Shown: piece by piece, positions 649 through 48,388 of the stretch
Numbering within the stretch: position 1 is the stretch's first letter
Layout of the letters: each line of letters begins with the position of its first letter
NCBI RefSeq assembly: GCF_001573155.1
Contig: NZ_JRWG01000003.1
Span: 62,001 to 126,000 of the forward strand
Reading direction: 5' to 3'
DNA from: Aequorivita aquimaris
Lineage (GTDB): Bacteria > Bacteroidota > Bacteroidia > Flavobacteriales > Flavobacteriaceae
DNA length: 64,000 nucleotides
The notes under the pieces: model-generated
Databases searched by the model: none
What the model was told of the DNA's origin: nothing
What the model saw: only the letters and a program-made list of their open reading frames with translations
Made by a program: the position numbers and the translations under genes

Positions 649-676
649 CTGAATTCATAATTCTGAATTCCTAATT
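649..676. repeat. Degenerate 7-bp tandem repeat (ctgaatt type, 4 units)
   Basis: Units ctgaatt, cataatt, ctgaatt and cctaatt follow each other without gaps in the ribH-706 intergenic space, about 9 bases before a TAACTTTG -7 element. It is one of about a dozen heptamer loci in the window. Confidence 0.75.
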
Positions 677-684
677 GAATTAAG

Positions 685-692
685 TAACTTTG
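685..692 (+). promoter_or_regulatory. Possible -7 element TAACTTTG
   Basis: TAACTTTG matches the Bacteroidota -7 consensus TAnnTTTG and lies 14 bases before the ATG at 706. I see no clear TTG at the expected -33 distance, so promoter activity is uncertain. Confidence 0.4.
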
Positions 693-705
693 AAGCACGA
701 CAATT

Positions 706-990
706 ATGGGACTAATAGGCAAGAGAAAAAATAAAAAGTACAGCTACAAACCGCGTCATTATGAATTTGACGGAGAGGGCAGCCCGTTTACCATGGGGCA
801 TAAGTTTGATGAATTTCGGACTACGGTTGGCGATAACAAAGGCTTAAAGGGAAAATTTAAAACCGCGTGGGCCGATTTGCGGCAATCTTCCGACAGAAAC
901 GCAAACCGAAGGCTGATTGTAATCATTGCCATTCTCGTCCTACTTTTCCTATTTATTATTGAATTCGATTTATCTATTTTCTACGCATAA
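706..990 (+). CDS. Small membrane-anchored protein of unknown function
   Basis: A 94-aa protein with a basic, Lys/Arg-rich N-terminus (KRKNKKYSYKPRHYEF), a polar middle section and one hydrophobic C-terminal segment (about 70-92) that should be a membrane anchor, so the bulk probably faces the cytosol. It lies between ribH and mutL. Relatives in flavobacterial genomes are sometimes labelled riboflavin synthase subunit beta, apparently only because they follow ribH; nothing in the sequence supports that function. ATG 706 is the only reasonable start. It ends 6 bases before mutL, so it probably shares its transcript. Confidence 0.8.
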   Translation: MGLIGKRKNKKYSYKPRHYEFDGEGSPFTMGHKFDEFRTTVGDNKGLKGKFKTAWADLRQSSDRNANRRLIVIIAILVLLFLFIIEFDLSIFYA

Positions 991-996
991 ATTTTA

Positions 997-2841
997 ATGG
1001 CAGACATTATTCAGTTATTACCGGACCACGTTGCAAACCAGATTGCAGCCGGCGAAGTTGTGCAACGCCCCGCCTCGGTAGTGAAGGAATTGTTGGAAAA
1101 CGCCATTGACGCAAAGGCAACTTCAATCACCCTGGTAATTAAAGATGCGGGAAAAACCCTCGTCCAAGTTACCGACAACGGCATCGGGATGAGCGTTACC
1201 GACGCCCGGCTCAGTTTTGAGCGCCACGCCACTTCAAAAATCAAATCGGCCGAAGATCTTTTTAATCTTCATACAAAAGGTTTCCGGGGTGAGGCTTTGG
1301 CATCTATCGCCGCAATTGCGCACGTTGAGCTTAAAACCAAAACTGAAAATTCCGAAATAGGAACGCATCTCACCATTGAAGGCAGCAAAGTAATTTCGCA
1401 GGACCCGGCGGTGGTTCCAAAGGGCACGACCATTTCAGTAAAAAATCTTTTCTACAACATTCCCGCCCGAAGAAATTTTCTAAAAAGCAATCCTGTGGAA
1501 ACCCGTCATATAATTGATGAATTCCATCGCGTGGCCTTGGCGCATCCAAACGTCGCGTTTCAAATGCTTCACAACGGGAGCGATGTTTTCAATCTTCCAT
1601 CGACAAATTCGCGGCAACGTATCGTAAATATCTTTGGAAGCAAAACCAATGAAAAACTGGTTCCCGTTCACGAAGAAACCGAAATCCTAAAAATTGAAGG
1701 TTTTGTTTTAAAACCGGAATTCGGAAAAAAGAGTAGGGGCGAGCAGTTCTTTTTTGTAAACGACCGCTTTATAAAAAGTCCGTATCTGCACCACGCGGTT
1801 TCATCGGCCTTTGAAGGTTTGATGAAAAATGACGTGCATCCGGGCTACTTTCTTTTTTTGGAAGTTGATCCGCATTCCATTGACATCAACATACATCCCA
1901 CAAAAACCGAGATAAAGTTTGACGATGAGCATTCCATCTATGCCATGCTCCGCGCCACGGTAAAGCACAGTTTGGGGCAGTTCAATATTGCGCCCGTGCT
2001 CGATTTTGAAAGGGATAAGGGTTTTGATACGCCTTACGAATACAGTAAAAAATCACCCACCGCGCCTTCCATTGAAGTAGATCGCGACTTTAATCCCTTT
2101 AAGGAAAAGCCAAAGCAGGGCAATATCAATTTTCCTTTTAAAAGAGAGCAATCTGCCTCGTGGGAATCATTATATGTAGGTTTAAATGATGAAAATGCTG
2201 CCGTTTCCAATTTGGGAGATATTGAGTTTGAAAGCGAGGAAGTAACCGGAAGCCTTTTTGAAAATACCGAAACCGAAACAGGACAAACAACTTTTCAGCT
2301 TCAAAATAAATACATCGTTAGCCCGCTGAAAAACGGAATGATGGTTATCCATCAAAACCTTGCTCACCAACGGATTCTTTACGAAGAGCTGTTAAAAAAT
2401 ATTACTGTAAAGGAAGCGGTTAGCCAGCAATTGTTGTTTCCGCTGCAACTGCATTTTTCAAAGCCCGATTTGGAAATTATTGAAAAAGTACGCGAGCAAT
2501 TGGAGCACACGGGCTTTATTTTTTCAGAAATAAAAGAGGAAACGATTGAGATTAGCGGTATTCCCGTGATGATTTTGGAAAGCCATGTTGTAAATTTGCT
2601 CAGCCAGTTGGTGCACGATATAAAGGAAGAAGTGCCCGAAAGTGGTTTTAGCCAGAACGATATGCTTGCAAAATCTATGGCCGCGAGTATGGCCATAAAA
2701 ACAGGGGTTTCGCTGAACAGGGAAGAACGGGAGCATTTAATCAATCAATTATTTGCGTGCAAAGAACCTTCCGTTTCGCCAAATAACAAGCTGGTTTTTA
2801 CAACGATGGACGTAAGTGACCTCGATAAAAAATTTATGTAA
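997..2841 (+). CDS. mutL: DNA mismatch repair protein MutL
   Basis: MutL couples mismatch recognition by MutS to strand removal. The N-terminal GHKL ATPase is intact: ELLENAIDA with catalytic Glu31 and Mg-binding Asn35, DNGIGM at 60-65 and KGFRGEALASI at about 94-104, followed by the transducer domain. At 614 aa it has a full C-terminal dimerisation domain starting near 430. The place of the endonuclease motif DQHA-x2-E-x4-E reads HQNLAHQRILYE (452-463), so D, H, A and the first E are changed. The final Cys motif is also altered (ACKEPSVSPNNK instead of CPHGRP). Nicking activity is therefore doubtful. It abuts the following rhomboid gene. Confidence 0.96.
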   Translation: MADIIQLLPDHVANQIAAGEVVQRPASVVKELLENAIDAKATSITLVIKDAGKTLVQVTDNGIGMSVTDARLSFERHATSKIKSAEDLFNLHTKGFRGEALASIAAIAHVELKTKTENSEIGTHLTIEGSKVISQDPAVVPKGTTISVKNLFYNIPARRNFLKSNPVETRHIIDEFHRVALAHPNVAFQMLHNGSDVFNLPSTNSRQRIVNIFGSKTNEKLVPVHEETEILKIEGFVLKPEFGKKSRGEQFFFVNDRFIKSPYLHHAVSSAFEGLMKNDVHPGYFLFLEVDPHSIDINIHPTKTEIKFDDEHSIYAMLRATVKHSLGQFNIAPVLDFERDKGFDTPYEYSKKSPTAPSIEVDRDFNPFKEKPKQGNINFPFKREQSASWESLYVGLNDENAAVSNLGDIEFESEEVTGSLFENTETETGQTTFQLQNKYIVSPLKNGMMVIHQNLAHQRILYEELLKNITVKEAVSQQLLFPLQLHFSKPDLEIIEKVREQLEHTGFIFSEIKEETIEISGIPVMILESHVVNLLSQLVHDIKEEVPESGFSQNDMLAKSMAASMAIKTGVSLNREEREHLINQLFACKEPSVSPNNKLVFTTMDVSDLDKKFM

Positions 2842-3585
2842 ATGGGAAGAATAACCGATACCGTAAAATTTCTGTTAATACTGAATGTGATCTTTTATAT
2901 AGGATCATTTATTATTGGTGACTTATCGATTAAGTTGTTTGCGCTTTACTATTTTGAAAACCCCAATTTTCAATATTGGCAGCCTATCACGCATATGTTT
3001 ATGCACGACCCGTCGTCTATATTCCACATACTTTTTAATATGTATGCGCTCTGGGCTTTTGGTTCGCCGTTGGAAATGCGCTGGGGACAAAAAAAGTTTC
3101 TTTTCTTCTACTTTTCAGCGGGTTTGGGCGCAGCCATTATCCATACTTTGGTAAATTATTTCCAGATTCACAGTGTTATGGACGCGCTAATTGCTGGCGG
3201 CTGGAGTGAAGCTGAAGTAATGAGTTATTTATCAGGCGGCAACGGCGGTAGCAGGGCGGTTTTGGACACCGTTTCCATGGAAAATATTCGGGCCATGGCT
3301 CAATCTTATAACGGCGTGGCTTTGGGAGCTTCCGGGGCGGTTTATGGAATTTTGGTTGCCTTCGGAATTATGTTCCCGAATATTGAACTGATGTTAATCT
3401 TTCTCCCAATTCCAATTAAGGCGAAATATTTTATCCCCGGAATAATCTTATTGGATTTAATTTTTGGCATTACCGGAACCGCCACGGGTATTGCGCATTG
3501 GGCCCACATTGGTGGCGCGCTCTTCGGTTTTATAATGGCTTGGTACTGGAAAAAGAATAGTTTTGATAACCATCGTTGGAATTAA
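2842..3585 (+). CDS. Rhomboid family intramembrane serine protease
   Basis: A 247-aa polytopic inner-membrane protein of the GlpG/rhomboid family, which cleaves transmembrane substrates within the bilayer. The HILFNMYALWAFG stretch (about 60-72) is the conserved L1/TM2 region, GASGAVYG (about 163-170) carries the catalytic Ser and AHWAHIGGALFGF (about 217-229) the catalytic His. A roughly 40-residue insert rich in Gly and Ser precedes the serine helix. Its ATG follows the mutL TAA with no gap. A second rhomboid gene starts two bases after its stop, so the pair is probably co-translated. Confidence 0.93.
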   Translation: MGRITDTVKFLLILNVIFYIGSFIIGDLSIKLFALYYFENPNFQYWQPITHMFMHDPSSIFHILFNMYALWAFGSPLEMRWGQKKFLFFYFSAGLGAAIIHTLVNYFQIHSVMDALIAGGWSEAEVMSYLSGGNGGSRAVLDTVSMENIRAMAQSYNGVALGASGAVYGILVAFGIMFPNIELMLIFLPIPIKAKYFIPGIILLDLIFGITGTATGIAHWAHIGGALFGFIMAWYWKKNSFDNHRWN

Positions 3586-3587
3586 CT

Positions 3588-4463
3588 ATGGCAGCTACCA
3601 GTCTTTCATATAAGTATAAAACCGCCAATATTTTGGTAAAGCTCATTGTCATCAATGTAGCGGCATTTTTGGTGGTAAGGTTGGGGTCCTTCTTTTTGAG
3701 TGTGAGTCCGCAATACTTCTCTCGATGGTTTGTTTTAGGCGATGATTTCGACACTCTTTTGTTTCGGCCGTGGACGCTTATTACCTATGGGTTTTTGCAT
3801 TTCGGTTTTTTCCATATTCTCTTTAATATGCTTTGGCTGTACTGGTTTGGGCAGTTTGTGCTCAACCTTTTTACAGGAAAACGACTGTTGACCATCTATC
3901 TGTTGGGGGCTGCATTTGGCGGGCTGTTATTTATTTTGTCCTATAACTTTTTTCCGGTTTTTGAAATGCAACGCGGGTTTTTAATTGGCGCCTCGGGAGC
4001 AGTTATGGCCCTGATGGTTTTTATCGCCACCTACACCCCGAATACCGAAGTCCGAATCTTTACCTTCACTATAAAACTGTGGCACATTGCGCTTTTCCTT
4101 TTTCTTTTTGATTTGGTACGCATACCTTCATCGGGAAATGCCGGCGGATTGATGGCCCACGTGGGTGGTGCAATTTTCGGTTATATCTATGCAGTTCAAC
4201 TCGCTAAGGGGAACGACATTGGCAAGTGGTTCGAGAATTTTATGGATTGGATTGCCAACCTTTTCAAGCCACGAACAAAAAAGCCTTTTAAAAAAGTACA
4301 CCGCACAACACAACCCGCTTCGCAACGTTCTAAACCAAGAGCTGAAAAATCTGAAAACCAAAAAAAGGTGGACAGTATTTTGGACAAAATAGGCAAAAGT
4401 GGCTACGAAAGTCTTACAAAGGAAGAAAAGGACTTTCTGTTCAAGGCCGGAAAAGACGACTAA
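3588..4463 (+). CDS. Rhomboid family intramembrane serine protease with cytosolic tail
   Basis: Second rhomboid, 292 aa. HILFNMLWLYWFG is the L1/TM2 region, LIGASGAVMAL (about 132-142) contains the catalytic Ser and MAHVGGAIFGY (about 188-198) the catalytic His. After the last helix there is a basic, Lys/Arg-rich linker (about 220-255) and a short conserved tail (VDSILDKIGKSGYESLTKEE) of the kind named DUF6576, probably cytosolic. I chose ATG 3588, two bases after the previous stop, over an upstream in-frame TTG at 3576 that would overlap it. Tandem divergent rhomboids suggest different substrates. Confidence 0.93.
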   Translation: MAATSLSYKYKTANILVKLIVINVAAFLVVRLGSFFLSVSPQYFSRWFVLGDDFDTLLFRPWTLITYGFLHFGFFHILFNMLWLYWFGQFVLNLFTGKRLLTIYLLGAAFGGLLFILSYNFFPVFEMQRGFLIGASGAVMALMVFIATYTPNTEVRIFTFTIKLWHIALFLFLFDLVRIPSSGNAGGLMAHVGGAIFGYIYAVQLAKGNDIGKWFENFMDWIANLFKPRTKKPFKKVHRTTQPASQRSKPRAEKSENQKKVDSILDKIGKSGYESLTKEEKDFLFKAGKDD

Positions 4464-4466
4464 CCC

Positions 4467-5483
4467 ATGCGGAAATCTCTCAACAAATTCATTTACTGGG
4501 GCAATCTGCTCGCGGCATTTTTATTGTTGATTTCCTTCGTTCTGCCGTATTTGCCACCCAAAAGTTTCCCGACATTGTCCTTGCTGAGTTTGGTGGTCTC
4601 ATTGCTAATAATTGTGAATATAATCTTCGCTATCTATTGGGCCGTGCAGTTTAGGCGCAGATTCTTAGTGTCGTTCACCGTACTTTTGATTTCCTATTTT
4701 TACTTCAACGTATTTTACGAAGTTTCCTCGGAAGGCGACGCTTCCCAATATAAAAATACCCTCAGTGTTTTATCTTACAATGTGCGGCTTTTTAATGCCT
4801 ACGAAAAAAATCCAGACACCGATGCACCTCAAATAATTGCTGAAATGCTTTTTGAGGAAAATCCCGACGTGGTCTGCGTGCAGGAATACTACAATCCCAA
4901 TACCATCGACTTTTCCGGCTATCCCTATCAATACATTCACTTTAAATCTGAAAAGGCAAAACTGGGCCACGCCATCTTTTCAAAATATCCGTTGGTAAAT
5001 ACCGGGGCCTTCGATTTTGAGGATACCTATAACAATACGCTTTACGCCGATGTGGTAAAGGGCACCGATACCCTTCGTATTTACAGCTTACATTTGCAGT
5101 CGCTCGGCATTATTCCGCGGGTAAGTTTTTTACAGGAAAGCGATAACGAAAAACTCCGCAAACGGGTGTCGCGAGCCTTTGAAATGCAACAGCAACAGGT
5201 AGCGGCCATCTTGGAACACAAAGCGAAAACCAAGCATCCGGTGATCCTTTCCGGCGATTTCAACAATACGCCTTTTTCGTACAGTTATCGAAAATTGAAA
5301 GATGGGATGCAGGACGCCTTCCGCGAGCGGGGCAATGGGTTGGGGACCACCTTCAAATTTGAGGGTTTCCCGATGCGGATCGATTATATCTTTGCTTCAA
5401 ATGGGCTCGATATACTGTCATTCGATACTATGAAGAAAACTTTTTCCGACCATTATGCCGTGCGGGCCACCGTGGGCTGGTAA
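4467..5483 (+). CDS. Membrane-anchored endonuclease/exonuclease/phosphatase family protein
   Basis: A 338-aa protein with three hydrophobic segments in the first 90 residues followed by an EEP (DNase I-like) fold. Signature pieces are LSVLSYNVRLFNAY (about 97-110), VCVQEYY with the metal-binding Glu (about 137), LSGDFNNTPFSY (about 261-272), RIDYIFAS and the terminal FSDHYAVRA with the catalytic Asp-His (about 328). The topology puts the hydrolase outside or on the membrane face. The substrate (nucleic acid, phospholipid or inositol phosphate) cannot be told. The gene begins three bases after the rhomboid stop, so it ends a mutL-rhomboid-rhomboid-EEP run. Confidence 0.88.
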   Translation: MRKSLNKFIYWGNLLAAFLLLISFVLPYLPPKSFPTLSLLSLVVSLLIIVNIIFAIYWAVQFRRRFLVSFTVLLISYFYFNVFYEVSSEGDASQYKNTLSVLSYNVRLFNAYEKNPDTDAPQIIAEMLFEENPDVVCVQEYYNPNTIDFSGYPYQYIHFKSEKAKLGHAIFSKYPLVNTGAFDFEDTYNNTLYADVVKGTDTLRIYSLHLQSLGIIPRVSFLQESDNEKLRKRVSRAFEMQQQQVAAILEHKAKTKHPVILSGDFNNTPFSYSYRKLKDGMQDAFRERGNGLGTTFKFEGFPMRIDYIFASNGLDILSFDTMKKTFSDHYAVRATVGW

Positions 5484-5486
5484 TTT

Positions 5487-5514
5487 CGATTTTTGATTTA
5501 CGATTTTCGATTTA
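5487..5514. repeat. 7-bp tandem repeat (cgattta type, 4 strong units)
   Basis: Units cgatttt, tgattta, cgatttt and cgattta are contiguous just after the EEP gene stop; weaker copies continue to about 5528. The complement of this repeat type occurs again at 48354-48388. Confidence 0.8.
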
Positions 5515-5540
5515 CTAATATCGAATCACAACCACGATAG

Positions 5541-6164: not shown

Positions 6165-6186
6165 TTCAAAAATAGGAAAGAAGTGT

Positions 6187-6221
6187 GAAATACAAAATAC
6201 GAAATACGAGATACGAAATTA
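6187..6221. repeat. 7-bp tandem repeat (gaaatac type, 5 units)
   Basis: Units gaaatac, aaaatac, gaaatac, gagatac and gaaatta are contiguous between the divergent WbqC-like and udk genes. A short two-unit relative (agatacg, gaatacg) is at 54064-54077. Confidence 0.8.
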
Positions 6222-6223
6222 AA

Positions 6224-6291
6224 GTCGATGAGTTTAGAAGTCGATGAGTTTAGCATTACTTACGTTTTTCTAAACTCATAAACTCATCGAC
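6224..6291. repeat. 16-bp direct repeat with inverted copy (potential long hairpin)
   Basis: gtcgatgagtttag occurs at 6224-6237 and again at 6240-6253, 16 bases apart. The complementary sequence follows as ctaaactca (6270-6278) and taaactcatcgac (6279-6291). The transcript or single strand could fold into a stem of about 13 bp in two alternative registers. It lies 20 bases upstream of the udk promoter and is not followed by a T-run, so it is not an ordinary terminator. Confidence 0.7.
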
Positions 6292-6298
6292 TCTTTTC

Positions 6299-6326
6299 AG
6301 AACCTGAAACTTGAAACCTGCAACCC
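6299..6326. repeat. 7-bp tandem repeat (gaaacct type, 4 units)
   Basis: Units agaacct, gaaactt, gaaacct and gcaaccc are contiguous. The TTG that fits the -33 element of the udk promoter (6311-6313) spans the boundary of the second and third units. Confidence 0.8.
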
Positions 6327-6341
6327 TTTTCCCTACCTTTG
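6311..6341 (+). promoter_or_regulatory. Promoter of the udk-mutB operon
   Basis: TTG at 6311-6313, 20 bases, then TACCTTTG at 6334-6341, matching the Bacteroidota TTG/TAnnTTTG pattern. It lies 16 bases before the udk ATG. The -33 part is inside a heptamer repeat. Confidence 0.75.
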
Positions 6342-6357
6342 TATAAACCTTTAAAAT

Positions 6358-8865: not shown

Positions 8866-8869
8866 CATT

Positions 8870-9517: not shown

Positions 9518-11685
9518 TGGCCAGAAAAAATATACAACATATCGATTTGAAGACAGAAGCTGGAAGCCGGGAACCGGAAGCAAATAATAACTTGCAACCT
9601 GAAACCAGTAACCTGAAACCCGAAACTTTTACCACAGCCGAAGAAATAGAAATAAAAAAGCAATACACAGCTGAAGACATTGCCAATCTTAAACACCTAA
9701 ACTTCGTAGCTGGAATCGCGCCACACCTGCGCGGGCCATATTCAACCATGTACGTCCGCCGCCCGTGGACCATCCGCCAATACGCCGGTTTTTCAACGGC
9801 GGAGGATAGCAACGCTTTTTACAGAAGAAACTTAGCAGCTGGCCAAAAAGGACTTTCGGTAGCTTTCGATCTTGCCACCCATCGAGGTTACGATAGCGAC
9901 CATCCCCGCGTGGAGGGCGATGTGGGCAAAGCAGGCGTAGCAATTGACAGCGTGGAGGATATGAAAATCCTCTTCGACCAAATTCCGTTGGACAAGATGA
10001 GCGTCTCCATGACGATGAACGGCGCCGTGCTTCCCATTATGGCGTTCTACATTGTGGCTGCGGAAGAGCAGGGCGTTTTGCCAAAAGATTTGGCAGGAAC
10101 TATCCAAAATGATATTCTAAAGGAATTCATGGTGCGCAATACCTACATCTATCCGCCCACGCCTTCCATGAAAATCATCAGCGATATTTTTGAATTCACT
10201 TCGAAAAATATGCCTAAGTTCAACAGCATTTCAATCTCTGGTTACCATATGCAGGAAGCGGGCGCCACGGCTGATATTGAACTTGCATACACTCTTGCAG
10301 ACGGTCTGGAATACATCCGCACCGGAATAAAAGCGGGAATGGATATTGACACTTTTGCACCAAGACTTTCCTTTTTCTGGGCAATCGGGATGAACCATTT
10401 TATGGAAATCGCAAAAATGCGCGCTGCCCGTATGCTATGGGCAAAGATTGTAAAACAGTTCAATCCAAAGGACGAAAAATCACTCGCCCTGCGCACCCAC
10501 TGCCAAACCAGCGGTTGGAGCCTTACCGAGCAGGACCCATTCAACAATGTAGCCCGAACCGCCATTGAAGCCGCCGCAGCGGTTTTCGGCGGCACGCAAT
10601 CGTTGCACACAAACGCTTTGGATGAGGCCATTGCATTACCAACCGATTTCTCTGCCCGTATCGCCAGAAACACCCAGATTTTCCTGCAAACCGAAACCCA
10701 GATCACCAAAACGGTTGACCCTTGGGCGGGCAGTTATTATGTGGAAAACCTTACCGACGAAATTGCCAACAAAGCCTGGGCGCTAATAGAGGAAGTAGAA
10801 GAACTCGGTGGCATGACCAAAGCCATAGAGGCCGGCATCCCCAAACTGCGCATAGAGGAAGCCTCTGCCCGTAAGCAGGCGCGTATTGATAGCGGACAGG
10901 ACATAATAGTAGGCGTAAACAAATTCCGTCTTGAAAAGGAAGACCCGTTGCAAATCCTCGATGTGGACAACCAAAAAGTCCGCACCTCGCAGATTGAACG
11001 CCTAAACCGCATAAAAGCCACCCGCGACACCAAAAAGGTAGAAAATGCCCTGGCAGATATTACCGAATGTGCAAAGACAGGTGAAGGAAATTTATTAGCT
11101 TTAGCCGTAGAAGCCGCCCGCCACAGGGCAACGCTTGGCGAAATCTCCACCGCAATGGAAAAGGAATTCGGCAGGTATAAGGCACAGATACGCTCCTTTA
11201 GCGGTGTATATAGCAAAGAGATGAAAAAGGACCCAAGTTTTGATAAGGCAAGGCAAATGGCAGACAAGTTCGCCGAACTTGAAGGCCGCCGCCCCCGTAT
11301 TATGATTGCCAAAATGGGGCAGGACGGTCACGACCGCGGCGCCAAGGTAGTAGCCACAGGCTATGCCGATGTAGGTTTTGACGTGGACATAGGCCCACTC
11401 TTCCAAACCCCTGCCGAAGCCGCCAAACAGGCGGTGGAAAACGATGTGCACATTCTCGGCGTTTCCTCCCTTGCCGCTGGGCACAAAACCTTAGTGCCAC
11501 AGGTGATTGAAGCCCTAAAAAAGTATGGCCGTGAAGATATTATGGTTATCGTGGGCGGCGTAATACCCGCGCAGGACTACCAATACCTTTTTGATGCCGG
11601 CGCGGTTGCTGTTTATGGCCCAGGAACTCGTATTAGCGATGCTGCTATTGAAATGTTGGGGGTTTTGATTGAGGGGGTGGAGTGA
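9517..11685 (+). CDS. mutB: Methylmalonyl-CoA mutase large (catalytic) subunit
   Basis: Adenosylcobalamin-dependent mutase interconverting (R)-methylmalonyl-CoA and succinyl-CoA. The 722 aa comprise an unusual N-terminal extension, the TIM barrel ([18 protein letters not shown], then [12 protein letters not shown] and [16 protein letters not shown]) and the C-terminal B12 domain with [11 protein letters not shown], whose DxHxxG His is the lower cobalt ligand. [10 protein letters not shown] and VGGVIP complete the cobalamin site. Residues about 13-36 ([20 protein letters not shown] and four more) are translated from a 7-bp tandem repeat at 9555-9624 and are probably an unstructured insertion. 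The start shares a base with the lipoprotein stop. Confidence 0.96.
9555..9624. repeat. 7-bp tandem repeat inside the mutB coding region (about 10 units)
   Basis: Units agaagct, ggaagcc, gggaacc, ggaagca, aataata, acttgca, acctgaa, accagta, acctgaa and acccgaa run for 70 bases within the first 36 codons of mutB. The acctgaa part is the same type as the intergenic repeat before udk (6299-6326). The frame stays open across it. Confidence 0.8.
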
Positions 11686-12979: not shown

Positions 12980-13022
12980 CATTTAAAAATCATACCCATC
13001 CCCACAAACCCACCACATTCAC

Positions 13023-13080
13023 AAACTCACCTATTCCCAAACTCACCTATTCCCAAACTCACCTATTCCCAAACTCCCCC
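13023..13080. repeat. 16-bp tandem repeat, 3.5 copies
   Basis: Three exact copies of aaactcacctattccc (13023-13038, 13039-13054, 13055-13070) and a partial fourth (aaactccccc). It lies about 80 bases upstream of the 243-aa gene. Exact identity of the copies suggests recent expansion. Confidence 0.9.
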
Positions 13081-13161
13081 AAAAATACGTGCAAACTCGT
13101 ATTTCCATAAAAGTCCGATTTCATACTTTTAGTTTAATATTAATCTAAAACCATAGAAATC

Positions 13162-13893
13162 ATGGCTAAACAAAATGAAACCGGCCATGTAATAAACGTG
13201 GACAACTTTTACGAACTCATGCAGTTTCCCATCTCCTACGGCGCACAGTACGACCCGCCCATGGCTGCATTACAAATTCCACAGCTAAATGTAAAGTACA
13301 CCGCATCGCAAAACATTATGCAGTCGCTGTTAGATGAACTTACCGTGTACAACAACTTCGTAAACGCCCGACAGCAGGTATTTGCAGACCGCAGGCCGCT
13401 CGCCACCCGCATCATCAACATTCTGGCAACCTCCGGCGCCTCTAAGGAAATCGTGGAAGATGCAAAAACCATTAACCGCAAGATACAAGGGCAGCGCGCC
13501 ACGCCAAAAACTCCCCTAGAACCAGATACTTCCGCGCCCAGAGACATTAGCGCCAGCCAGATGTCCTTCGCGCAGACCATCTCGCACTGGGCAGAGCTCA
13601 TCTCGCTCTTAGAAAGTGAGCCACTCTACGCACCAACCGATGTTGCTTTGCAAACCGATACCCTATCCGAAATGCACGAGGCAATGGTAAGCGCAAACGA
13701 GGCCGTGGCAGCGGCACACCCCTCCGTGGCAGAAAAGATGAACGAGCGGGACGAAATTATGTACGCCCCAGACACAGGCTTGGTAGCCGTTGCGGCCCTG
13801 GTAAAGCAATACATAAAAGGATTATTCGGCGCCCGAAGCCCACAGTTTAAGGATGTAAACCGAATTAAATTCCGCACCTTTAAAAGAAGGTAA
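13162..13893 (+). CDS. Uncharacterised 243-aa protein flanked by tandem-repeat arrays
   Basis: A soluble, mostly helical protein without signal peptide or membrane helix; it begins MAKQNETGHVINVDNFYELM and ends in a basic KFRTFKRR tail. The middle (about 95-130) has a basic stretch INRKIQGQRATPKTP followed by a Pro/Asp-rich linker. The C-terminal part contains LVAVAALVKQYIKGLFGARSPQFKDV. I believe similar orphan proteins of about 240 aa occur in other flavobacteria, but I cannot name a domain. It is transcriptionally isolated, with a 16-bp array upstream and a 21-bp array 130 bases downstream. Its codons are C-rich compared with the AT-rich genes before it. Confidence 0.75.
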   Translation: MAKQNETGHVINVDNFYELMQFPISYGAQYDPPMAALQIPQLNVKYTASQNIMQSLLDELTVYNNFVNARQQVFADRRPLATRIINILATSGASKEIVEDAKTINRKIQGQRATPKTPLEPDTSAPRDISASQMSFAQTISHWAELISLLESEPLYAPTDVALQTDTLSEMHEAMVSANEAVAAAHPSVAEKMNERDEIMYAPDTGLVAVAALVKQYIKGLFGARSPQFKDVNRIKFRTFKRR

Positions 13894-14023
13894 GCCCACG
13901 GCATAACTCCCCAGTTATTTCGTATTATAATACTCCCCAATTTTTGAACTCCCAATTTTTTCCTTCCAAAGCAACCCTTCTATCACGGAAGGTTTTACTT
14001 TTTCCATAATACCTTCTCAAAAA

Positions 14024-14245
14024 CCCATAGAATTAGCGTCTGCACGCATAGAGTTGACGTCTGTACGCATAGAATTAGCATCTGCACGCATAGAATTAGC
14101 GTCTGCACGCATAGAATTGCCGTCTGCACGCATAGAGTTAGCGTCTGCACACATAGAATTGGCGTCTGCACGCATAGAGTTGGCGTCTGCACGCATAGAG
14201 TTTGCGTCTGCACGCATAGAATTGGCGTCTGCACGCATAGGGTGA
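14024..14245. repeat. 21-bp tandem array, ten full copies
   Basis: Consensus cgcatagaattggcgtctgca. Ten full units run from 14024 to 14233 and an eleventh decays after cgcatagggtg. Variation is confined mostly to the a/g after atag, the two or three bases after gatt, and single changes elsewhere. Across unit boundaries most copies keep a self-complementary CGT-ctgc-ACG core that could form a small hairpin per unit (eight of ten junctions). Confidence 0.92.
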
Positions 14246-14275
14246 ATAATTTTTTTTTTGAAATAAAGACTTTTC

Positions 14276-14352
14276 GGCTCACAGCTCACCGCTTACCGCT
14301 TACAGCTCACGGCTCACGGCTCACAGCTCACAGCTCACAGCTCACAGCTTAA
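14276..14352. repeat. 7-bp tandem repeat (agctcac type, 11 units)
   Basis: Units ggctcac, agctcac, cgcttac (x2), agctcac, ggctcac (x2), agctcac (x3) and agcttaa are contiguous, just after the 21-bp array. It is the longest heptamer array in the window. Confidence 0.92.
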
Positions 14353-14384
14353 AGCATATAGCCCAAACCCAGAAGAATTTTTTC

Positions 14385-14392
14385 TATATTTG
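14385..14392 (+). promoter_or_regulatory. -7 element TATATTTG before the DinB remnant
   Basis: TATATTTG matches TAnnTTTG and ends one base before an ATG at 14394. This may be the relic of the promoter and start of the original DinB-family gene. No TTG is at the expected -33 distance, where heptamer repeat now lies close by. Confidence 0.4.
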
Positions 14393-14393
14393 A

Positions 14394-14570
14394 ATGATAA
14401 CCTCCATCAACAATCAACAATCAACAATCAACAATCAACCATTACCAAAGGCAGATTTTGAAAAGGAATATCCCACAAACAAACACAGCTACTACAAGCA
14501 CATTCACGGCATTATTCAGCACGATGCCTATCACTTGGGGCAGATAGTGCTTTTGGCAAAAATGGTATAA
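14394..14570 (+). pseudogene. Truncated DinB-family protein remnant
   Basis: A 58-codon frame: ATG 14394, a repeat-encoded stretch (MITSINNQQSTINNQPLPKA), then a C-terminus YYKHIHGIIQHDAYHLGQIV ending LLAKMV. That end is the conserved last helix of DinB/YfiT-type four-helix proteins, with the metal-ligand HxxxH spacing of QHDAYH. Intact members have about 150-170 residues, so roughly the first two thirds are missing and replaced by a caatcaa-type heptamer repeat. I read it as an internal deletion with the repeat at the junction. Expression as a short peptide is possible but function is unlikely. Confidence 0.7.
14407..14441. repeat. 7-bp tandem repeat (tcaacaa type, 5 units)
   Basis: Four exact tcaacaa units and a final tcaacca, at the 5' end of the DinB-family remnant and in frame with it. 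Confidence 0.9.
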
Positions 14571-14978: not shown

Positions 14979-14993
14979 CTAGGGGGATGTTCA

Positions 14994-15035
14994 CCACTCA
15001 CCACTCACCACTCACCACTCACTACTCACTACCTA
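14994..15035. repeat. 7-bp tandem repeat (ccactca type, 6 units) at the rlmH stop
   Basis: Four exact ccactca units, then ctactca and ctaccta. The last unit contains the rlmH stop codon (complement of 15029-15031) and its final Arg codon. Confidence 0.9.
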
Positions 15036-15502: not shown

Positions 15503-15545
15503 TAAAAACTTTTCAGATGCCAAAAATACAAAGATAAAAGTTGCT

Positions 15546-15573
15546 ACTTCCCACTTCCCACTTCGTCCTTCTA
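15546..15573. repeat. 7-bp tandem repeat (acttccc type, 4 units)
   Basis: Units acttccc, acttccc, acttcgt and ccttcta lie between the divergent rlmH and nadC starts, about 36 bases before the nadC ATG. Confidence 0.75.
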
Positions 15574-23034: not shown

Positions 23035-23081
23035 TTAAAAGCACCGGTTAAAATTCCTCAAATCCAAAATTGAATATGATT

Positions 23082-23109
23082 GGGATTTGGAATTTGTTAT
23101 TTGTAATTT
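23082..23109. repeat. 7-bp tandem repeat (ggaattt type, 4 units)
   Basis: Units gggattt, ggaattt, gttattt and gtaattt, between the convergent DUF6495 and ABC permease genes. The preceding aaattcctcaaatcc (23051-23065) is nearly complementary and could form a hairpin serving both transcripts. Confidence 0.75.
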
Positions 23110-38574: not shown

Positions 38575-38577
38575 AAC

Positions 38578-39880: not shown

Positions 39881-40092
39881 GATTTTTTAATTTTTGCTTA
39901 AAAATACTTTGTTTTATTATATCAAAAAAAGTTTAAACAAAATATTAACTATTCTACCGCATTTAAACTATAATCGTGGATTGCGCCATTTTCTTTTGTT
40001 GTAAATTCTTTAGATTTTAGGTTTTCCTTAACGATTAAAAAATTTCCAAACAGTAACTTCGTGAAAATTATAATCACCTTAAAACCATTACA

Positions 40093-40938: not shown

Positions 40939-40961
40939 TAAACCTGCTTCAATAAATTACG

Positions 40962-40988
40962 AAAGCCCCAATTTTTGGGGCTTTTTTT
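40962..40988 (+). terminator. Bidirectional terminator between DUF2911 gene and ECF operon
   Basis: aaagcccc, loop aattttt, ggggcttt followed by seven T on the + strand; A-rich on the other side, so it can serve both convergent transcripts. Confidence 0.9.
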
Positions 40989-41945: not shown

Positions 41946-41968
41946 TTTAAATCTTGAATACCGTTACA

Positions 41969-42520: not shown

Positions 42521-42593
42521 TGTTTGCGCAATCGGTTATATGACGGAAATATTTCGGAAAGGTTTAATTTGGTACGGAATTTTTTAATATCCG

Positions 42594-44420: not shown

Positions 44421-46135
44421 TAACTCACGTTTAGTTGTGCGGCGATAGCGTCAATTTTTTTCTGAAGTACCGCTTCAAAATTATCCTTTTCGGAAGTGTT
44501 CACGCTAATGTAGAACTTTATTTTCGGTTCGGTGCCGCTGGGTCGCGCTGCAATTTTGCTACCGTCTTCGGTATAATAGATTAACACGTTGCTTTTTGGC
44601 AGGTTTAATGCCAAGGTTTTTTGATTTGTGAAATCTGTGGTTTCACCTTTTAAAACATCGTCCATCCGGATTACTTTACTGCCCGCAATTTCCTTAAACG
44701 GATTTTCGCGCAGCTTTTTCATCATCGCCGAGATTTCGGCAGCGCCCTGTTTTCCTTTCTTCGTTATTGAAATCAAATGCTCTCGGTAGTTTCCGTATTC
44801 ATTGTAAACTTCGTTTAAATATTGGAACATACTGCTGCCGGCGTGTTTTTTCTGCGCCGCAATCTCGCAGGCCAGTAGGGTAGCGGTTACGGCATCCTTA
44901 TCCCGAACAAAATCTCCCACCAAATACCCGAAACTTTCTTCGCCGCCGCCAATAAACTCAAGTTCGGGATAGTCTTTTATCATTTTGGCAATCCACTTAA
45001 AACCCGTAAGCCCTTCCAGATATTTTACGTTGAAATGCTCCGCAACCTTCTCCACCATTGGCGTGGAAACAATTGTGGAGGCCACAAACTGGTTGCCGTT
45101 CAACTTTCCAGCCTTTTGCCATTGTTCCAAAAGAAAATGCGTCATTAAAACCATGGTTTGGTTTCCGTTGAGCAAAACCATTTCATTGTTGTCATTTCTA
45201 ACGGCAACTCCCAATCGGTCGCAGTCTGGATCGGTGCCAATTACAATGTCAGCATTTTCTTTTTCGGCGAGTTCCAAAGCCATTTTTAAGGCTGCTGGTT
45301 CTTCGGGATTGGGAGATTTTACCGTTGGGAAATCGCCGTTTGGCTCTGCCTGTTCTTCAACAATGGAAACATTTTTATAGCCAGCCTGTTCCAAAACCTT
45401 CGGAATCATGGTAATTGAAGTGCCGTGGAGGGAAGTGAAAACAATTTTCAAATTGTCTTTAGCTTCCTGGGAAGTATTAAAAGTACCGTTTTCAACTGAA
45501 GCTTTTGCGAATGCTTCGTCAACTTCGGAATCTATTAATTGGATTAAATTTTCGTTCGCTTCAAACTTTATGTCTTCGTAATTCAGCGAATTTATTTCAG
45601 CAATAATTTCACCATCCTGAGGCGGCACCAGTTGTCCGCCATCTTCCCAATATACTTTATAACCATTGTATTCCGGCGGATTGTGGGAAGCTGTTAAAAC
45701 AATTCCTGCCTTGCAATCCAGCAATTTTACTGCGAAGGAAAGCTCGGGCGTGGGCCGCAATTCTGAAAAAAGAAAGACCTTAATACTGTTTGCCGAAAAA
45801 ACATCGGCTACCACTTTCGCAAATTCCTTGCTGTTGTGGCGGCAATCGTAAGCTATGGCTACCTTTATTTCTTGGTTTGGAAATTGCTTCTTTAAATAAT
45901 TTGAAAGCCCTTGGGTGTTTTTTCCTAAAGTATATTTATTGATTCGGTTGTCGCCAAGCCCCATGATGCCTCGCATTCCACCGGTACCGAATTCCAGATT
46001 TTTATAAAAGCTGTCTTCCAATCCCTCAGGATCGTAAGCGATCATTTCCTTGATTTCGTGCTGGGTTTTTTCGTCAAAAAAAGGGGTGAGCCACTGGTTA
46101 ACGCGGTCTAAAATTTTCGGATCTACGTAAATCAT
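44420..46135 (-). CDS. Phospho-sugar mutase (phosphoglucomutase/phosphomannomutase)
   Basis: Interconverts hexose 1- and 6-phosphates. About 571 aa from ATG 46135; an in-frame TTG three codons earlier is less likely. It has the alpha-D-phosphohexomutase domains: FGTGGMRGIMGLGDNRIN (about 46-63), the catalytic Ser in LTASHNPPEYNGYKVYW (about 144-160), metal-binding GTDPDCDRLG (about 300-309), sugar-binding GGGEESFGY and phosphate-binding RPSGTEPKIKF. The length fits the PGM2-like group, which can act on glucose and ribose phosphates. It is coupled to the downstream ABC exporter. Confidence 0.94.
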   Translation of the reverse strand: MIYVDPKILDRVNQWLTPFFDEKTQHEIKEMIAYDPEGLEDSFYKNLEFGTGGMRGIMGLGDNRINKYTLGKNTQGLSNYLKKQFPNQEIKVAIAYDCRHNSKEFAKVVADVFSANSIKVFLFSELRPTPELSFAVKLLDCKAGIVLTASHNPPEYNGYKVYWEDGGQLVPPQDGEIIAEINSLNYEDIKFEANENLIQLIDSEVDEAFAKASVENGTFNTSQEAKDNLKIVFTSLHGTSITMIPKVLEQAGYKNVSIVEEQAEPNGDFPTVKSPNPEEPAALKMALELAEKENADIVIGTDPDCDRLGVAVRNDNNEMVLLNGNQTMVLMTHFLLEQWQKAGKLNGNQFVASTIVSTPMVEKVAEHFNVKYLEGLTGFKWIAKMIKDYPELEFIGGGEESFGYLVGDFVRDKDAVTATLLACEIAAQKKHAGSSMFQYLNEVYNEYGNYREHLISITKKGKQGAAEISAMMKKLRENPFKEIAGSKVIRMDDVLKGETTDFTNQKTLALNLPKSNVLIYYTEDGSKIAARPSGTEPKIKFYISVNTSEKDNFEAVLQKKIDAIAAQLNVS

Positions 46136-46245
46136 TCGTTTCAATTAAAGTGCAAAAATAGCAATAAAATAAAGGAGAATATAAGATTCCAGATTTAATG
46201 TTTGAGTCGTTAAGAGTGCTAATGTTTTGGATTCCGAAGCCCCAA

Positions 46246-47193
46246 TTACTGATTGACAGTTTCTTTAATGATATAGTTTCTTGAATCTTTTTTGCTTCGA
46301 AGGATCAATTCACCCAAAAACCCAGCAAGAAAAAGTTGCGATCCCAGAACCATTGCTATTAGGGCAATAAAAAATTCAGGTCTGTCAGTAATAAGTCTTG
46401 CCGAAGGATTGATAAATAGCTTGTCGATTCCCAAATACAGTGCGAAGGAAAAGCCCACAAAAAGCATAAATGCGCCCCACGCGCCAAATAGGTGCATCGG
46501 TCTTTTTCCGAAACGTGACAAAAACCAAATGGTGATCAAATCCAAAAATCCGCGGATAAAACGTTCGGCGCCAAATTTGGTCGTTCCGTATTTTCGGGCC
46601 TGGTGCAAAACAGGTTTTTCTGAAATTCTACTGAAGCCAGCATTTTTGGCCAAAACAGGAATATAGCGGTGCATTTCGCCAGTAACTTCTATGGTTTTCA
46701 CAACATCTTTTTTATAAGCTTTCAACCCACAATTAAAGTCGTGCAATTTTACGCCAGAAGTTTTCCGTGCAGCATAATTGAACAGTTTTGAAGGCAGGTT
46801 TTTGCTCAAAACAGAATCGTATCGTTTCTTTTTCCAGCCCGAAACAAGGTCAAAACCTTCCTCGGTAATCATTTTATAGAGTTCGGGAATTTCTTCTGGA
46901 TTGTCCTGTAGATCGGCATCCATCGTAATAATCACATCGCCTTTGGCCATTGCAAAACCCGCGTGCAGGGCTTGCGATTTACCGTAATTCTTCTGAAAAC
47001 GGATTCCTTTTACCTCAGAATTTTCACGGGATAATTTTTCAATAATTTTCCAGGAACCGTCTGTACTTCCATCGTCAATAAAGATGAGCTCGTACAAAAA
47101 ACCATTGGATTGCATAACATCTGCAATCCAACGGTACAATTCATTTAGCGATTCTTCTTCGTTCAGAAGGGGTATGACGATGGAAATATTCAT
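46246..47193 (-). CDS. Family 2 glycosyltransferase with C-terminal membrane helices
   Basis: A 315-aa GT-A enzyme of the polyprenyl-phosphate sugar transferase type (GtrB/DPM1-like): ISIVIPLLNEEESLNELYRW, FIDDGSTDGSWKII (about 37-50), MDADLQDNPEEIPELY with the DxD motif (about 91-106), DFNCGLKAYKKDVV (about 152-165) and two helices near 230-255 and 266-291. It probably makes a lipid-linked sugar for envelope glycans. ATG 47193 is preferred to the TTG just before it. It directly follows the DUF4199 gene. Confidence 0.92.
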   Translation of the reverse strand: MNISIVIPLLNEEESLNELYRWIADVMQSNGFLYELIFIDDGSTDGSWKIIEKLSRENSEVKGIRFQKNYGKSQALHAGFAMAKGDVIITMDADLQDNPEEIPELYKMITEEGFDLVSGWKKKRYDSVLSKNLPSKLFNYAARKTSGVKLHDFNCGLKAYKKDVVKTIEVTGEMHRYIPVLAKNAGFSRISEKPVLHQARKYGTTKFGAERFIRGFLDLITIWFLSRFGKRPMHLFGAWGAFMLFVGFSFALYLGIDKLFINPSARLITDRPEFFIALIAMVLGSQLFLAGFLGELILRSKKDSRNYIIKETVNQ

Positions 47194-47196
47194 CAA

Positions 47197-47739
47197 TTAG
47201 TTTAACGGATTTGGATTTTTTGTCTTGAAAATAAGTGCAACCAGCAACCCAATAACACTCATAAAAGCAAGACTGAATACGTAATTTTTCAGTTGTGTGC
47301 CAATTGCAAAGTTATCCTGTTCGGCCATTTTTGCCATTTGCTTATCTATTTCAGCTTGTGGAGTGCCTAGTTTTTGTAAGAATTCAGCGGTCATTTCCAA
47401 AGTCTTTTCCTGTAAAAAAGCGGCTAATTCCGGATCGATGATGTTGAATATTAAAATTCCAACGACAGTACTTATCAAAAGCCCGATTGCAACAGTAATA
47501 AAATACACTGTAAAGGATTGTTTAAAATTCATTATTCCTCCGAGCAAGCCCTTTGCTTTTGCCACGGATACAATCCCCAAGGCGATAATTATAATGAAAC
47601 TAATAATTCCCACCCACCATTTTGTGAAAAGGTCTGGATTTAAAACATACATCAGGGTAGTCATAAGCGCAAGAACTGCACCTAAAATAAGGCCGTAGTT
47701 GACCGCCGATTTTTTAATTGAAATAGGTTGGTTTTCCAT
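47197..47739 (-). CDS. DUF4199 family membrane protein
   Basis: A 180-aa protein with four hydrophobic segments (about 14-32, 38-60, 73-96, 150-172) and an amphipathic stretch between the third and fourth (ELAAFLQEKTLEMTAEFLQK). This matches DUF4199, a Bacteroidota family of unknown function. I chose ATG 47739 (MENQPISIKKSAVNYG); a TATCTTTG -7 element on the same strand at 47776-47783 supports it, because codons before that would precede transcription. The glycosyltransferase follows after three bases. Confidence 0.87.
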   Translation of the reverse strand: MENQPISIKKSAVNYGLILGAVLALMTTLMYVLNPDLFTKWWVGIISFIIIIALGIVSVAKAKGLLGGIMNFKQSFTVYFITVAIGLLISTVVGILIFNIIDPELAAFLQEKTLEMTAEFLQKLGTPQAEIDKQMAKMAEQDNFAIGTQLKNYVFSLAFMSVIGLLVALIFKTKNPNPLN

Positions 47740-47840
47740 TTTAACGTTGTTTTTTAAGTTCGGTTGGTTAGTAAACAAAGATAGCAAAACGTTACATTTG
47801 CGGGCGATTTAGTAACGAATTAAAAAAGTGGAGAATTTTG

Positions 47841-47870
47841 TTGCTAATTTCCAATTAATACTTACATTTG
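47841..47870 (+). promoter_or_regulatory. Promoter of rpmE
   Basis: TTG at 47841-47843, 19 bases, TACATTTG at 47863-47870, consensus Bacteroidota promoter 55 bases before the L31 ATG. Confidence 0.85.
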
Positions 47871-47925
47871 CAAACTCAATTCCGAAAGGTCGGAAGAGCG
47901 TATTTTAAATTATAATATTACAGAG

Positions 47926-48207
47926 ATGAAAAAAGGTATCCACCCAGAAAATTATAGAATAGTTGCTTTTAAGGATATGAGTAATGAAGACGTTTTCCTT
48001 ACTAAATCAACTGCAGATACAAAGGAAACTATCGAGGTTGATGGTGTTGAATATCCTTTGGTGAAGATGGAAATTTCACGTTCTTCACATCCTTTCTATA
48101 CCGGAAAAGCAAAACTTATCGATACTGCGGGACGTATTGACAAATTCAAAAACAAATACGACAAGTTTAAAAAACCTGCAGCTAAAGAAGCTAAAACTGA
48201 AGAATAG
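47926..48207 (+). CDS. rpmE2: 50S ribosomal protein L31, type B (zinc-free)
   Basis: A 93-aa L31 that bridges the subunits. It begins [20 protein letters not shown] and has the type-B features [40 protein letters not shown] and [11 protein letters not shown], with none of the zinc-binding cysteines of type A. It ends in a short AAKEAKTEE tail like that of L9. Monocistronic, with its own promoter and terminator. Confidence 0.96.
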
Positions 48208-48232
48208 TCTTCACTTTTTTAGTAAAACATAG

Positions 48233-48261
48233 AAAAGCCTTCGAGAAATCGGGGGCTTTTT
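48233..48261 (+). terminator. Terminator after rpmE
   Basis: aaaagcc ... ggctttt with an inner cga/tcg and a short T-run, 26 bases after the L31 stop. Confidence 0.75.
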
Positions 48262-48269
48262 GATTTTAG

Positions 48270-48287
48270 TCCCGATAGTTATCGGGA
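48270..48287. repeat. Perfect 18-bp palindrome
   Basis: TCCCGATAGTTATCGGGA, two 8-base arms around gt. It is directly followed by a heptamer repeat. Similar CCCGATA...TATCGGG palindromes are, as I recall, dispersed in Bacteroidota genomes. Confidence 0.8.
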
Positions 48288-48290
48288 GAC

Positions 48291-48318
48291 GATTGTTGAT
48301 TGTAGATTTTTGAGTAAT
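48291..48318. repeat. 7-bp tandem repeat (gattgta type, 3-4 units)
   Basis: Units gattgtt, gattgta, gattttt and a degenerate gagtaat immediately after the palindrome. Confidence 0.6.
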
Positions 48319-48353
48319 ATTGAATTTGTATTTTTATAGCTACGATTTTTAGG

Positions 48354-48388
48354 AAATCGTAAATCAAATATCTAAAATCGTAAATCAA
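48354..48388. repeat. 7-bp tandem repeat (aaatcgt/aaatcaa, 5 units) abutting a start codon
   Basis: Units aaatcgt, aaatcaa, atatcta, aaatcgt and aaatcaa end one base before the ATG at 48390, so they form the ribosome-binding region of that gene. It is the complement of the type at 5487-5514. Confidence 0.85.

Follow-up and report, generated by a model that had tools for sequence, protein, structure and literature searches.

The noncoding DNA of Aequorivita aquimaris and of many of its relatives is dotted with short heptad arrays of varied words, and arrays that lie just before genes are mostly oriented in a way that is predicted to keep the message unfolded. Bacterial heptamer repeats are known from earlier work, which includes short mentions of Aequorivita and Gramella; what is new here is the strand rule at start codons. 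The account that we somewhat favour has two layers, with slippage in steps of seven creating the arrays and selection on translation sorting their strands next to starts.

Period seven in the window and in the genome

An initial annotation of the window (the whole stretch of DNA analysed, 64 kb) had listed twelve loci made of seven-base units, and their coordinates and words are present as given (Table 1). Twenty order-2 Markov sequences, each of 64 kb, served as the background: lag-7 segments like those of 11 of the 12 loci were expected at most 0.15 times per window, so that these exceed chance, whereas 48291-48318 cannot be told apart from it. The listed words are indeed many, although the claim that they differ between most loci has to accommodate the GAAACCT type at both 6299 and 9596. 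At a score of 12, the window contained 11 segments of period 7, compared with 1, 1, 0 and 1 for periods 5, 6, 8 and 9. Tandem Repeats Finder, run at a low threshold of 30, reported arrays at nearly all listed places, some of them called as period 14. A tRNA was the sole Rfam match in the window at gathering score, with no known RNA family at the arrays.

The excess of period 7 over its neighbours, on which the initial annotation had staked its claim, holds also in a sample of the genome. This sample joined the window with 40 further pieces of 20 kb each and covered 27% of the genome (864 kb of 3,146,406 bases); in it, 33 arrays had period 7, compared with 1, 4, 4 and 5 for periods 5, 6, 8 and 9, and an order-3 Markov control yielded none with period 7. 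With strong arrays masked, intergenic autocorrelation still peaked at lag 7 (0.3016), above its values at lags 6 and 8 (0.2944 and 0.2942). A score of at least 13 defined arrays in this sample, at the RlmH loci, in the Bacteroidota spectrum and in the counts of identical words, gap orientation and closeness to starts and stops; a score of at least 11 was used for the Rho-strand count, the column test, the strand rule, and leader folding with its controls. At the higher score some arrays are perfect and many are degenerate. Genes were called by a simple codon-score script, which makes starts approximate, and some "coding" arrays may sit in leaders.

Table 1. Heptad arrays of the window
Position	Strand	Repeat	Context
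645..676	.	AATTCTG/AATTCAT degenerate heptads	upstream of small ORF and mutL
5484..5526	.	GATTNNN heptads	immediately after stop codon; convergent endonuclease/exonuclease family and WbqC-like genes
6188..6219	.	GAAATAC array	between divergent WbqC-like and uridine-kinase-family genes
6301..6325	.	GAAACCT/GAAACTT array	before uridine-kinase-family gene; same word in G252
9549..9626	+	degenerate heptads	inside coding N-terminal extension of methylmalonyl-CoA mutase
14277..14362	.	GCTCACA/GCTCACC/GCTTACC and variants, 12 units	strongest array
14406..14439	.	ATCAACA array, perfect, about 5 units	
14991..15032	.	TCACCAC/TCACTAC array	convergent gap behind rlmH and DUF6122 gene
15530..15571	.	ACTTCCC array	between divergent rlmH and nadC; identical heptads in G252
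23080..23109	.	GGAATTT/GTTATTT array	convergent gap; nearly letter-identical in G252
48291..48313	.	GATTGTT units	alone not above chance (1.4 expected per window)
48354..48386	+	AATCGTA/AATCAAA-type heptads	end at start codon (48390) of sugar-nucleotidyltransferase-like gene

The heptads at 9555-9624 are coding and lie ahead of the Pfam domain of the mutase, which starts at residue 39. When the window was compared by eye with a relative of 84.5% nucleotide identity (G252), the word was kept at 3 sites, changed at 3 and absent at 2. The gap of the 645..676 array carries other heptad words in this relative and that of the 5484..5526 array carries AATTACC units; no counterpart of the GAAATAC array was seen there, and the heptads at 48354..48386 are absent from it.

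Distribution over Bacteroidota and word turnover at one gap

Among intergenic arrays of all sampled Bacteroidota loci, orthologous loci included and phylum-level loci below 5 kb skipped, 113 had period 7, followed by 14 (29 arrays), 8 (21), 16 (18), 21 (17), 9 (6) and 6 (5); the spectrum of the RlmH loci also favours period 7. Divergent and convergent gaps showed no consistent difference in array preference, and proximity to starts or stops by itself had a weak effect. Period 21 in coding DNA was considered as an in-frame form of the seven-step and found no support (10 arrays at 21 vs 11 at 18).

Words turn over among Aequorivita species in the gap that holds the 14991..15032 array, 3' of rlmH. 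With one genome per species and a score of at least 7, this gap was mapped at 25 of 27 loci (L247 and L262 were unmappable). The best period was 7 in 14 of the 25 genomes (one tied with 9) and 8 in 4, no array reached the score in 7, and the other periods (4-6 and 9-12) reached it only twice, with 9 in L251 and 6 in L260. The words differ between species. The copy-number comparison at an orthologous locus that had been proposed for these repeats gave, at one site, three species whose TTTGGAA-type arrays have nearly identical flanks and number 4, 6 and 11 units.

The distribution is patchy, and a property common to polymerases does not account for this: 13 loci (218 kb) from other Flavobacteriaceae and relatives had no period-7 array at score 13. 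Loss of MutL was rejected as the cause, since all 41 genomes tested have MutL; Y-family polymerases, found in 38 of the 41, showed no visible link with heptads, and reverse transcriptase was rejected on its PF00078 matches. The 13 loci include Ulvibacter, Halomarinibacterium and Winogradskyella, and one of them (L044) has a weaker period-7 array at score 11. A more speculative reading, to which we give a minor but appreciable chance, is that the period is heritable without the sequence being so. A property of the replisome or a lineage-specific enzyme would impose the seven-step at given intergenic sites, and translation would then filter the strand. If true, the form would persist from species to species as words were exchanged, and such an enzyme would occur in Aequorivita and Flavobacterium, whereas some related genera would lack it or have it silenced.

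Words, cores and linkers

After 45 of 106 arrays had been dropped as orthologous, the 61 remaining words formed 28 identical pairs, compared with 4.5 expected and a maximum of 13 over 60 permutations. Three successive GAAACYT units were found at 324 places in 247 genomes (14 for the reversed control). Cores with free linkers were frequent in 28 Aequorivita genomes, with 889 places for GATT and 703 for CAGT (reversed controls 420 and 270); at spacing 8, GATT gave 115 places and its reversed control 86. These place counts were summed by hand and the places overlap.

Such cores could suggest that the arrays are binding sites, in which a protein (S1, cold-shock, CsrA-like or DNA-binding) reads 4-5 bases every seven and leaves the linkers free, as MacGregor proposed for TAACTGA repeats (PMC4679880). 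Runs in which a core returns at least 4 times at spacing 7 while its linkers vary do exist, and 27 of 30 fall in intergenic DNA plus 30 bases on either side; free-linker GATT and CAGT arrays occur in the majority of the searched Aequorivita genomes and also in some distant families. However, the core varies by locus, the word changes between species at one gap, and an unbiased column test of 63 arrays, each with 4 or more units and 3 or more changes, gave 3.75 invariant columns vs 3.77 simulated, with variation spread evenly over the heptad. Contiguity of the invariant columns was slightly raised (p=0.012). Because the column test reveals no excess, the fixed core, striking in core-based searches, is treated as mostly ascertainment and was rejected as a real architecture; binding sites are accordingly an improbable explanation. 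In heterogeneous core-defined arrays, linker likeness at lags 1, 2 and 3 was 0.63, 0.63 and 0.65 in the own genome and 0.65, 0.69 and 0.58 in G252, a near equality that counts against serial duplication, under which neighbours should be most alike.

A role of the spacing in placing stop codons in all frames was rejected (43 of 61 words with stops vs 46 for permuted words). ATG or CAT occurs in 6 of the 61 words, compared with 15.5 expected from permuted words, which parallels the reported underrepresentation of AUG near starts in Bacteroidetes (PMC6847099). TAACTGA is not among the 61 printed words, and CAGTNNN arrays, which would include its complement, were found at 3 places in the own genome. 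The word lists show mostly words without GGG or CCC and do not provide the four G-tracts, each of three or more G, expected of a quadruplex.

Orientation of arrays at start codons

Removal of redundancy left 20 arrays at starts and 28 at stops (34 and 60 beforehand). Arrays lying at most 20 bases ahead of start codons had an A+C content of 0.686 on the mRNA strand (n=20) vs 0.536 (n=2096; p=1.7e-7). A exceeded T in 17 against 2 (p=0.004); the excess of C over G by itself (17 to 3, where the background is 67%) was not significant (p=0.10). Arrays after stops were tried as a mirror image of this rule, which was rejected (C>G in 12, G>C in 16); their A+C content, 0.570 vs 0.526 (p=0.04), is raised, as it is ahead of starts.

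Predicted leader folding went from -2.6 to -8.5 kcal/mol when the array was flipped in silico, and structure increased in all 15 leaders, these being the ones among 27 with gaps of at least 35 bases. In array-free control leaders (500 of 1903, with gaps of at least 50 bases and a fixed 35-base stretch flipped), the mean difference was 0.96 and 61% changed in the same direction. Shuffling the array letters changed folding little (-3.4 vs -2.6, p=0.09), so the effect of the flip is one of composition. The strand rule fits with translation without Shine-Dalgarno sites.

Leaders with arrays are predicted to be unusually unstructured, which argues against hairpins acting as terminators or in coupling, where an array behind a stop would pair with an inverted one that precedes the following start. 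By eye, Flavobacterium GAAACYT arrays often face an inverted GTTTC array, and all 8 close plus/minus GATT pairs among the places listed read GATT..AATC, but a clear inverted partner was seen in 1 (L020) of 15 contexts of the own genome, and we rate hairpins slightly below binding sites. It is very doubtful that the arrays are Rho-utilisation sites, in which the nascent mRNA would carry pyrimidine-C dimers at intervals of seven bases: the strand of the opposite gene looks C-rich by eye at the rlmH gap in nearly all array-bearing species, but in co-directional gaps the sense strand had more C than G in 42 arrays and more G than C in 33, with one tie (summed by hand), no clear bias.

Proposed origin of the arrays

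The data are best matched by slippage that prefers steps of seven bases and accepts nearly any word. Replication slippage would duplicate short noncoding sequences in Aequorivita, Flavobacterium and some other Bacteroidota, with 7 nucleotides as the preferred step and 8 as the second, largely independently of the word. Arrays would then gain or lose whole units, drift in word with the register kept, and give way to other words in a given gap. Slippage as the mechanism, and the grip of the replicative polymerase as the source of the seven, are what we infer from these patterns. Near start codons, selection may keep arrays A+C-rich on the mRNA strand, possibly because initiation without Shine-Dalgarno sites depends on unstructured, AUG-poor leaders; selection on translation would thus be the cause of the strand rule.

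The initial annotation had proposed a seven-base slippage or templating process acting on any sequence. One period with many words, the unit-wise copy difference and the change of word at an orthologous gap point to a word-tolerant process that moves by seven bases, for which slippage fits, but "any sequence" is too strong, because some words recur between genera far above the reversed control and strands are limited before starts. Templating fared worse: the same words recur across genera, as might be expected if a reverse transcriptase or other templated enzyme wrote them, but PF00078 has no match in the own genome or in G252, G254, G257 and G272, all rich in GATT-type heptads, and its matches in 16 of 41 genomes include G198, G013 and G230, which have no GATT or CAGT places, so that PF00078-type enzymes are largely refuted as writers and this origin is barely credible.

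Relation to known heptad repeats

The preference of bacterial repeats for units of seven has called for an explanation since at least 2007 (cited in PMC4679880). The genus offers a natural comparison for finding the cause, with period 7 or 8 and many words in 18 of 25 mapped Aequorivita at one gap and samples of several related genera almost free of arrays. The strand rule would tie the birth of repeats to translation in bacteria without Shine-Dalgarno sites.

Among long simple repeats, heptanucleotides were reported to be the most frequent class in the majority of genomes (Mrazek et al. 2007, cited in PMC4679880). The cause proposed for this is that the polymerase contacts about 7 bases (cited in PMC4679880 and PMC4692102). 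Period 7 is likewise favoured among the longer of these prokaryotic repeats (cited in PMC4679880 and PMC4692102), and two of their features were found here, a period-7 excess in noncoding DNA and, at one site, a whole-unit copy difference between relatives. Compared with what is cited of them, the present arrays are often short and degenerate, change word at one site and follow a strand rule at starts. TAACTGA repeats are likewise reported as mostly intergenic, mostly just before starts and in forward direction (MacGregor 2015, PMC4679880), in Beggiatoaceae, cyanobacteria and five Bacteroidetes including Aequorivita sublithincola and Gramella forsetii (PMC4679880). The view that such repeats are not well described in flavobacteria is therefore half right, as this 2015 paper already mentions heptamers in both of the latter species. 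That study reports a single word with near variants rare in its main genome (PMC4679880), whereas many words occur here.

The GGGNATC and GGGGA(C/T)T heptads of Xanthomonas and Nostoc are degenerate as here (Rehm et al. 2015, PMC4692102). Near ORFs, their G-rich strand tends to be antisense before starts, giving a C-rich mRNA as here, and sense behind stops (PMC4692102). Their consensus repeats form G-quadruplexes in vitro (PMC4692102), whereas most words here have no G-tract; quadruplexes are thus not needed for the strand rule, and the published explanation does not cover most of the present words. Known degenerate heptads inside an intron hairpin share period 7 and length change by repeat copies with the present arrays, which differ in being intergenic.

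Period 7 in the genome and its relatives

In the draft genome of Aequorivita aquimaris (3,146,406 bases, 65 contigs), tandem arrays of seven-base units (heptads), whose letters (the word) may drift along the array, are far more frequent than arrays of neighboring periods. An excess of period 7 had been named beforehand as the test of the initial annotation, and it was found: the window and 40 sampled stretches, together 864 kb or 27% of the genome, contained 33 period-7 arrays, against 1, 4, 4 and 5 at periods 5, 6, 8 and 9, and an order-3 Markov control of this sample contained none at period 7. By our own gene calls, 26 of the 33 are intergenic, though intergenic DNA makes up only about 10% of the sample. 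Once strong arrays are masked, intergenic DNA still has its top autocorrelation, among lags above 2, at lag 7; lags 6 and 8 form shoulders, and echoes follow at 14-15 and 21. Coding DNA has no lag-7 peak. Within the window, Tandem Repeats Finder, run with a permissive threshold, recovered arrays at nearly all of the twelve heptad loci initially annotated, and 11 of them stood above chance in a lag-7 scan against Markov sequences, the exception being 48291-48318.

The RlmH protein of the window is 91-96% identical to that of five named Aequorivita species, and relatives were sampled at 80 loci around rlmH. Seven Aequorivita-type loci held 13 arrays of period 7 and 3 of period 8, and 58 mostly Flavobacterium loci held 39 of period 7 (Markov control, 1) and 1, 1, 5 and 3 at periods 5, 6, 8 and 9. 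At score 13, no period-7 array was detected in two Algoriphagus loci or in 13 loci of other relatives (Ulvibacter, Halomarinibacterium, Winogradskyella and several metagenome-assembled Flavobacteriaceae), one of which (L044) has a weaker array. Further out, the wider class gave 4 arrays in 336 kb (control, 1) and the wider phylum 4 in 638 kb (control, 0). The pooled intergenic spectrum of all loci and the relative G252, in which orthologous loci are counted separately, has 113 arrays at period 7, 29 at 14, 21 at 8, 18 at 16 and 17 at 21; no remaining period from 4 to 45 exceeds 8. Neither reverse transcriptases, Y-family polymerases nor MutL track the array distribution.

Turnover of words and copy number

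The intergenic gap 3' of rlmH was mapped in 25 genomes of the genus, and 18 carry an array (score at least 7). The best period is 7 in 14 of these, among them one tie with period 9, and 8 in the other 4; at the other tested periods only two scores reached 7, one at period 9 and one at 6. Among the words in this gap are TCACCAC, TCACTAC, AGCGAAA, TTTGGAA, GAGATTT, GACGAGG, GGTTCTT and an eight-base TTGGATTG type. In genomes that share a word and have nearly matching flanks, copy number at this orthologous locus, a comparison that the initial annotation proposed between strains, is 4, 6 or 11 units. Compared by eye with G252 (84.5% nucleotide identity), the window has the same word at 6299, 15546 and 23080 and a different heptad word at 649, 5487 and 14991; G252 has no array at 6187 or 48291-48388 and dissimilar sequence in place of the coding array at 9555. 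The region 13005-14441, including two of the strongest arrays, has no simple mapping onto G252. Inside arrays, words drift with the register retained (for example, L138 19678 and L147 7446). Word drift with the register kept, word turnover and unit-wise copy numbers are as would be left by slippage in seven-base steps and later mutation. Word turnover at one gap was not reported in the literature searched for heptamer repeats in Bacteroidetes and Flavobacteria.

Some Aequorivita genomes (e.g., at L243, L249, L250 and L252) have eight-base repeats, often of GATTNTTG type, where others carry heptads. In the rlmH-nadC gap of some species (L240, L253, L250, L254), heptads are replaced by dispersed-looking sequence around TTCGGCTTCGCTCAGC.

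Fixed core or free word

A fixed core with free linkers was considered and is regarded mostly as a search-selection effect, because reversed controls are also abundant and an unbiased column test gave no excess. A tetramer repeated four times at spacing 7 occurs in 30 runs inside or next to intergenic DNA, with unequal linkers in 27, against 0, 2, 0, 1 and 2 runs at spacings 5, 6, 8, 9 and 10. Free-linker GATT and CAGT occur at hundreds of places in 28 Aequorivita genomes, as do their reversed controls, and 63 arrays have 3.75 invariant columns versus 3.77 under evenly spread mutation, with contiguity of such columns slightly raised (p=0.012). Once the core is discounted, a preference for certain words remains. 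Among arrays kept as non-orthologous there are 28 identical-word pairs against 4.5 in permuted words (six-fold), and three-fold GAAACYT occurs at 324 places against 14 for its reversed control in 247 genomes of the phylum, all of them in 13 genomes belonging to 5 of the 122 genera. The initial proposal of slippage or templating acting on any sequence is supported for the seven-base step, where slippage fits the arrays, but goes too far in its indifference to sequence, since certain words recur. Neighboring linkers are no more alike than those of units further apart, whereas simple serial duplication predicts otherwise.

Strand rule at start codons

Repeats of TAACTGA, mostly just 5' of start codons, have been described in Beggiatoaceae, cyanobacteria and five Bacteroidetes, with other heptamers noted alongside them in Aequorivita and Gramella (MacGregor 2015, PMC4679880). 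Here, with redundant arrays removed, those whose end lies no more than 20 bases from a start codon (GAAACCT, TAACCCT, AATCGTA, ACTGAAC, AACAGAC, CCTAATC and similar words) have an mRNA-strand A+C content of 0.686 (n=20), compared with 0.536 in array-free stretches (n=2096; p=1.7e-7). With redundancy likewise removed, A exceeds T in 17 to 2 (p=0.004); C over G alone (17 to 3, p=0.10) is not significant because the background leans the same way, and arrays behind stop codons follow no mirror-image rule. In Xanthomonas and Nostoc, GGGNATC heptads form quadruplexes in vitro and, before starts, have their G-rich strand preferentially antisense (Rehm 2015, PMC4692102); the bias direction is equal here, but the words mostly lack a G-tract. 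Six array sequences used as literature text queries gave no match, and the search on heptamer repeats in Bacteroidetes and Flavobacteria found no strand rule across many words.

Predicted leader folding in the own genome and G252 is -0.8 kcal/mol with arrays (n=13) and -3.9 without (n=767). In all 15 cases from five data sets, the predicted leader gained structure when the array was reverse-complemented in place (mean 5.9 kcal/mol); a comparable flip did so in 61% of 500 array-free leaders (mean 1.0 kcal/mol). Composition underlies the effect, as shuffled array letters alter folding little. ATG/CAT is scarce in array words (6 of 61, 15.5 expected). In Flavobacterium johnsoniae, which is without Shine-Dalgarno sites, mRNA structure and bases 5' of the start tune translation, and AUG is underrepresented near starts in Bacteroidetes (PMC6847099). 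The strand rule, the folding and the AUG scarcity are naturally read as selection for open leaders, which we infer here. Arrays would be born by slippage with a seven-base step, mutate afterwards and be sorted at start codons by this selection, and we lean towards slippage plus sorting as their explanation.

Other repeats

Inverted array pairs of the types GTTTC..GAAAC and GATT..AATC occur. At least eight close opposite-strand GATT pairs were seen by eye, all GATT..AATC, with no AATC..GATT among the matches listed.

Repeat and gene features, in window coordinates unless a genome or locus is named
Feature	Coordinates	Description
Coding heptad array	9549-9626	methylmalonyl-CoA mutase N-terminal extension, upstream of the Pfam domain
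Mismatch-repair gene mutL	997-2841	lies a short distance 3' of one array
Direct and inverted units	6222-6287	between two diverging genes; two direct copies of 16-base AAGTCGATGAGTTTAG, then inverted counterpart of TAAACTCA units; possible hairpin
16-base unit CAAACTCACCTATTCC	13005-13076	4.4 copies
Ten 21-base units	14017-14240, minus strand	73-residue open frame, mostly heptapeptide RADANSM with MGF-stop at its end; no match in Pfam
21-base array	sampled locus L020, 5921-6138	open frame with AIGFEGV-like repeats
Opposite-strand GATT pairs	own genome (G000), C4:78547/78588 and C6:42893/42937	
Opposite-strand GATT pairs	genomes G247, G033 and G049	

Another flavobacterial genome (G103) has nineteen reverse-transcriptase matches, many with an identical score.
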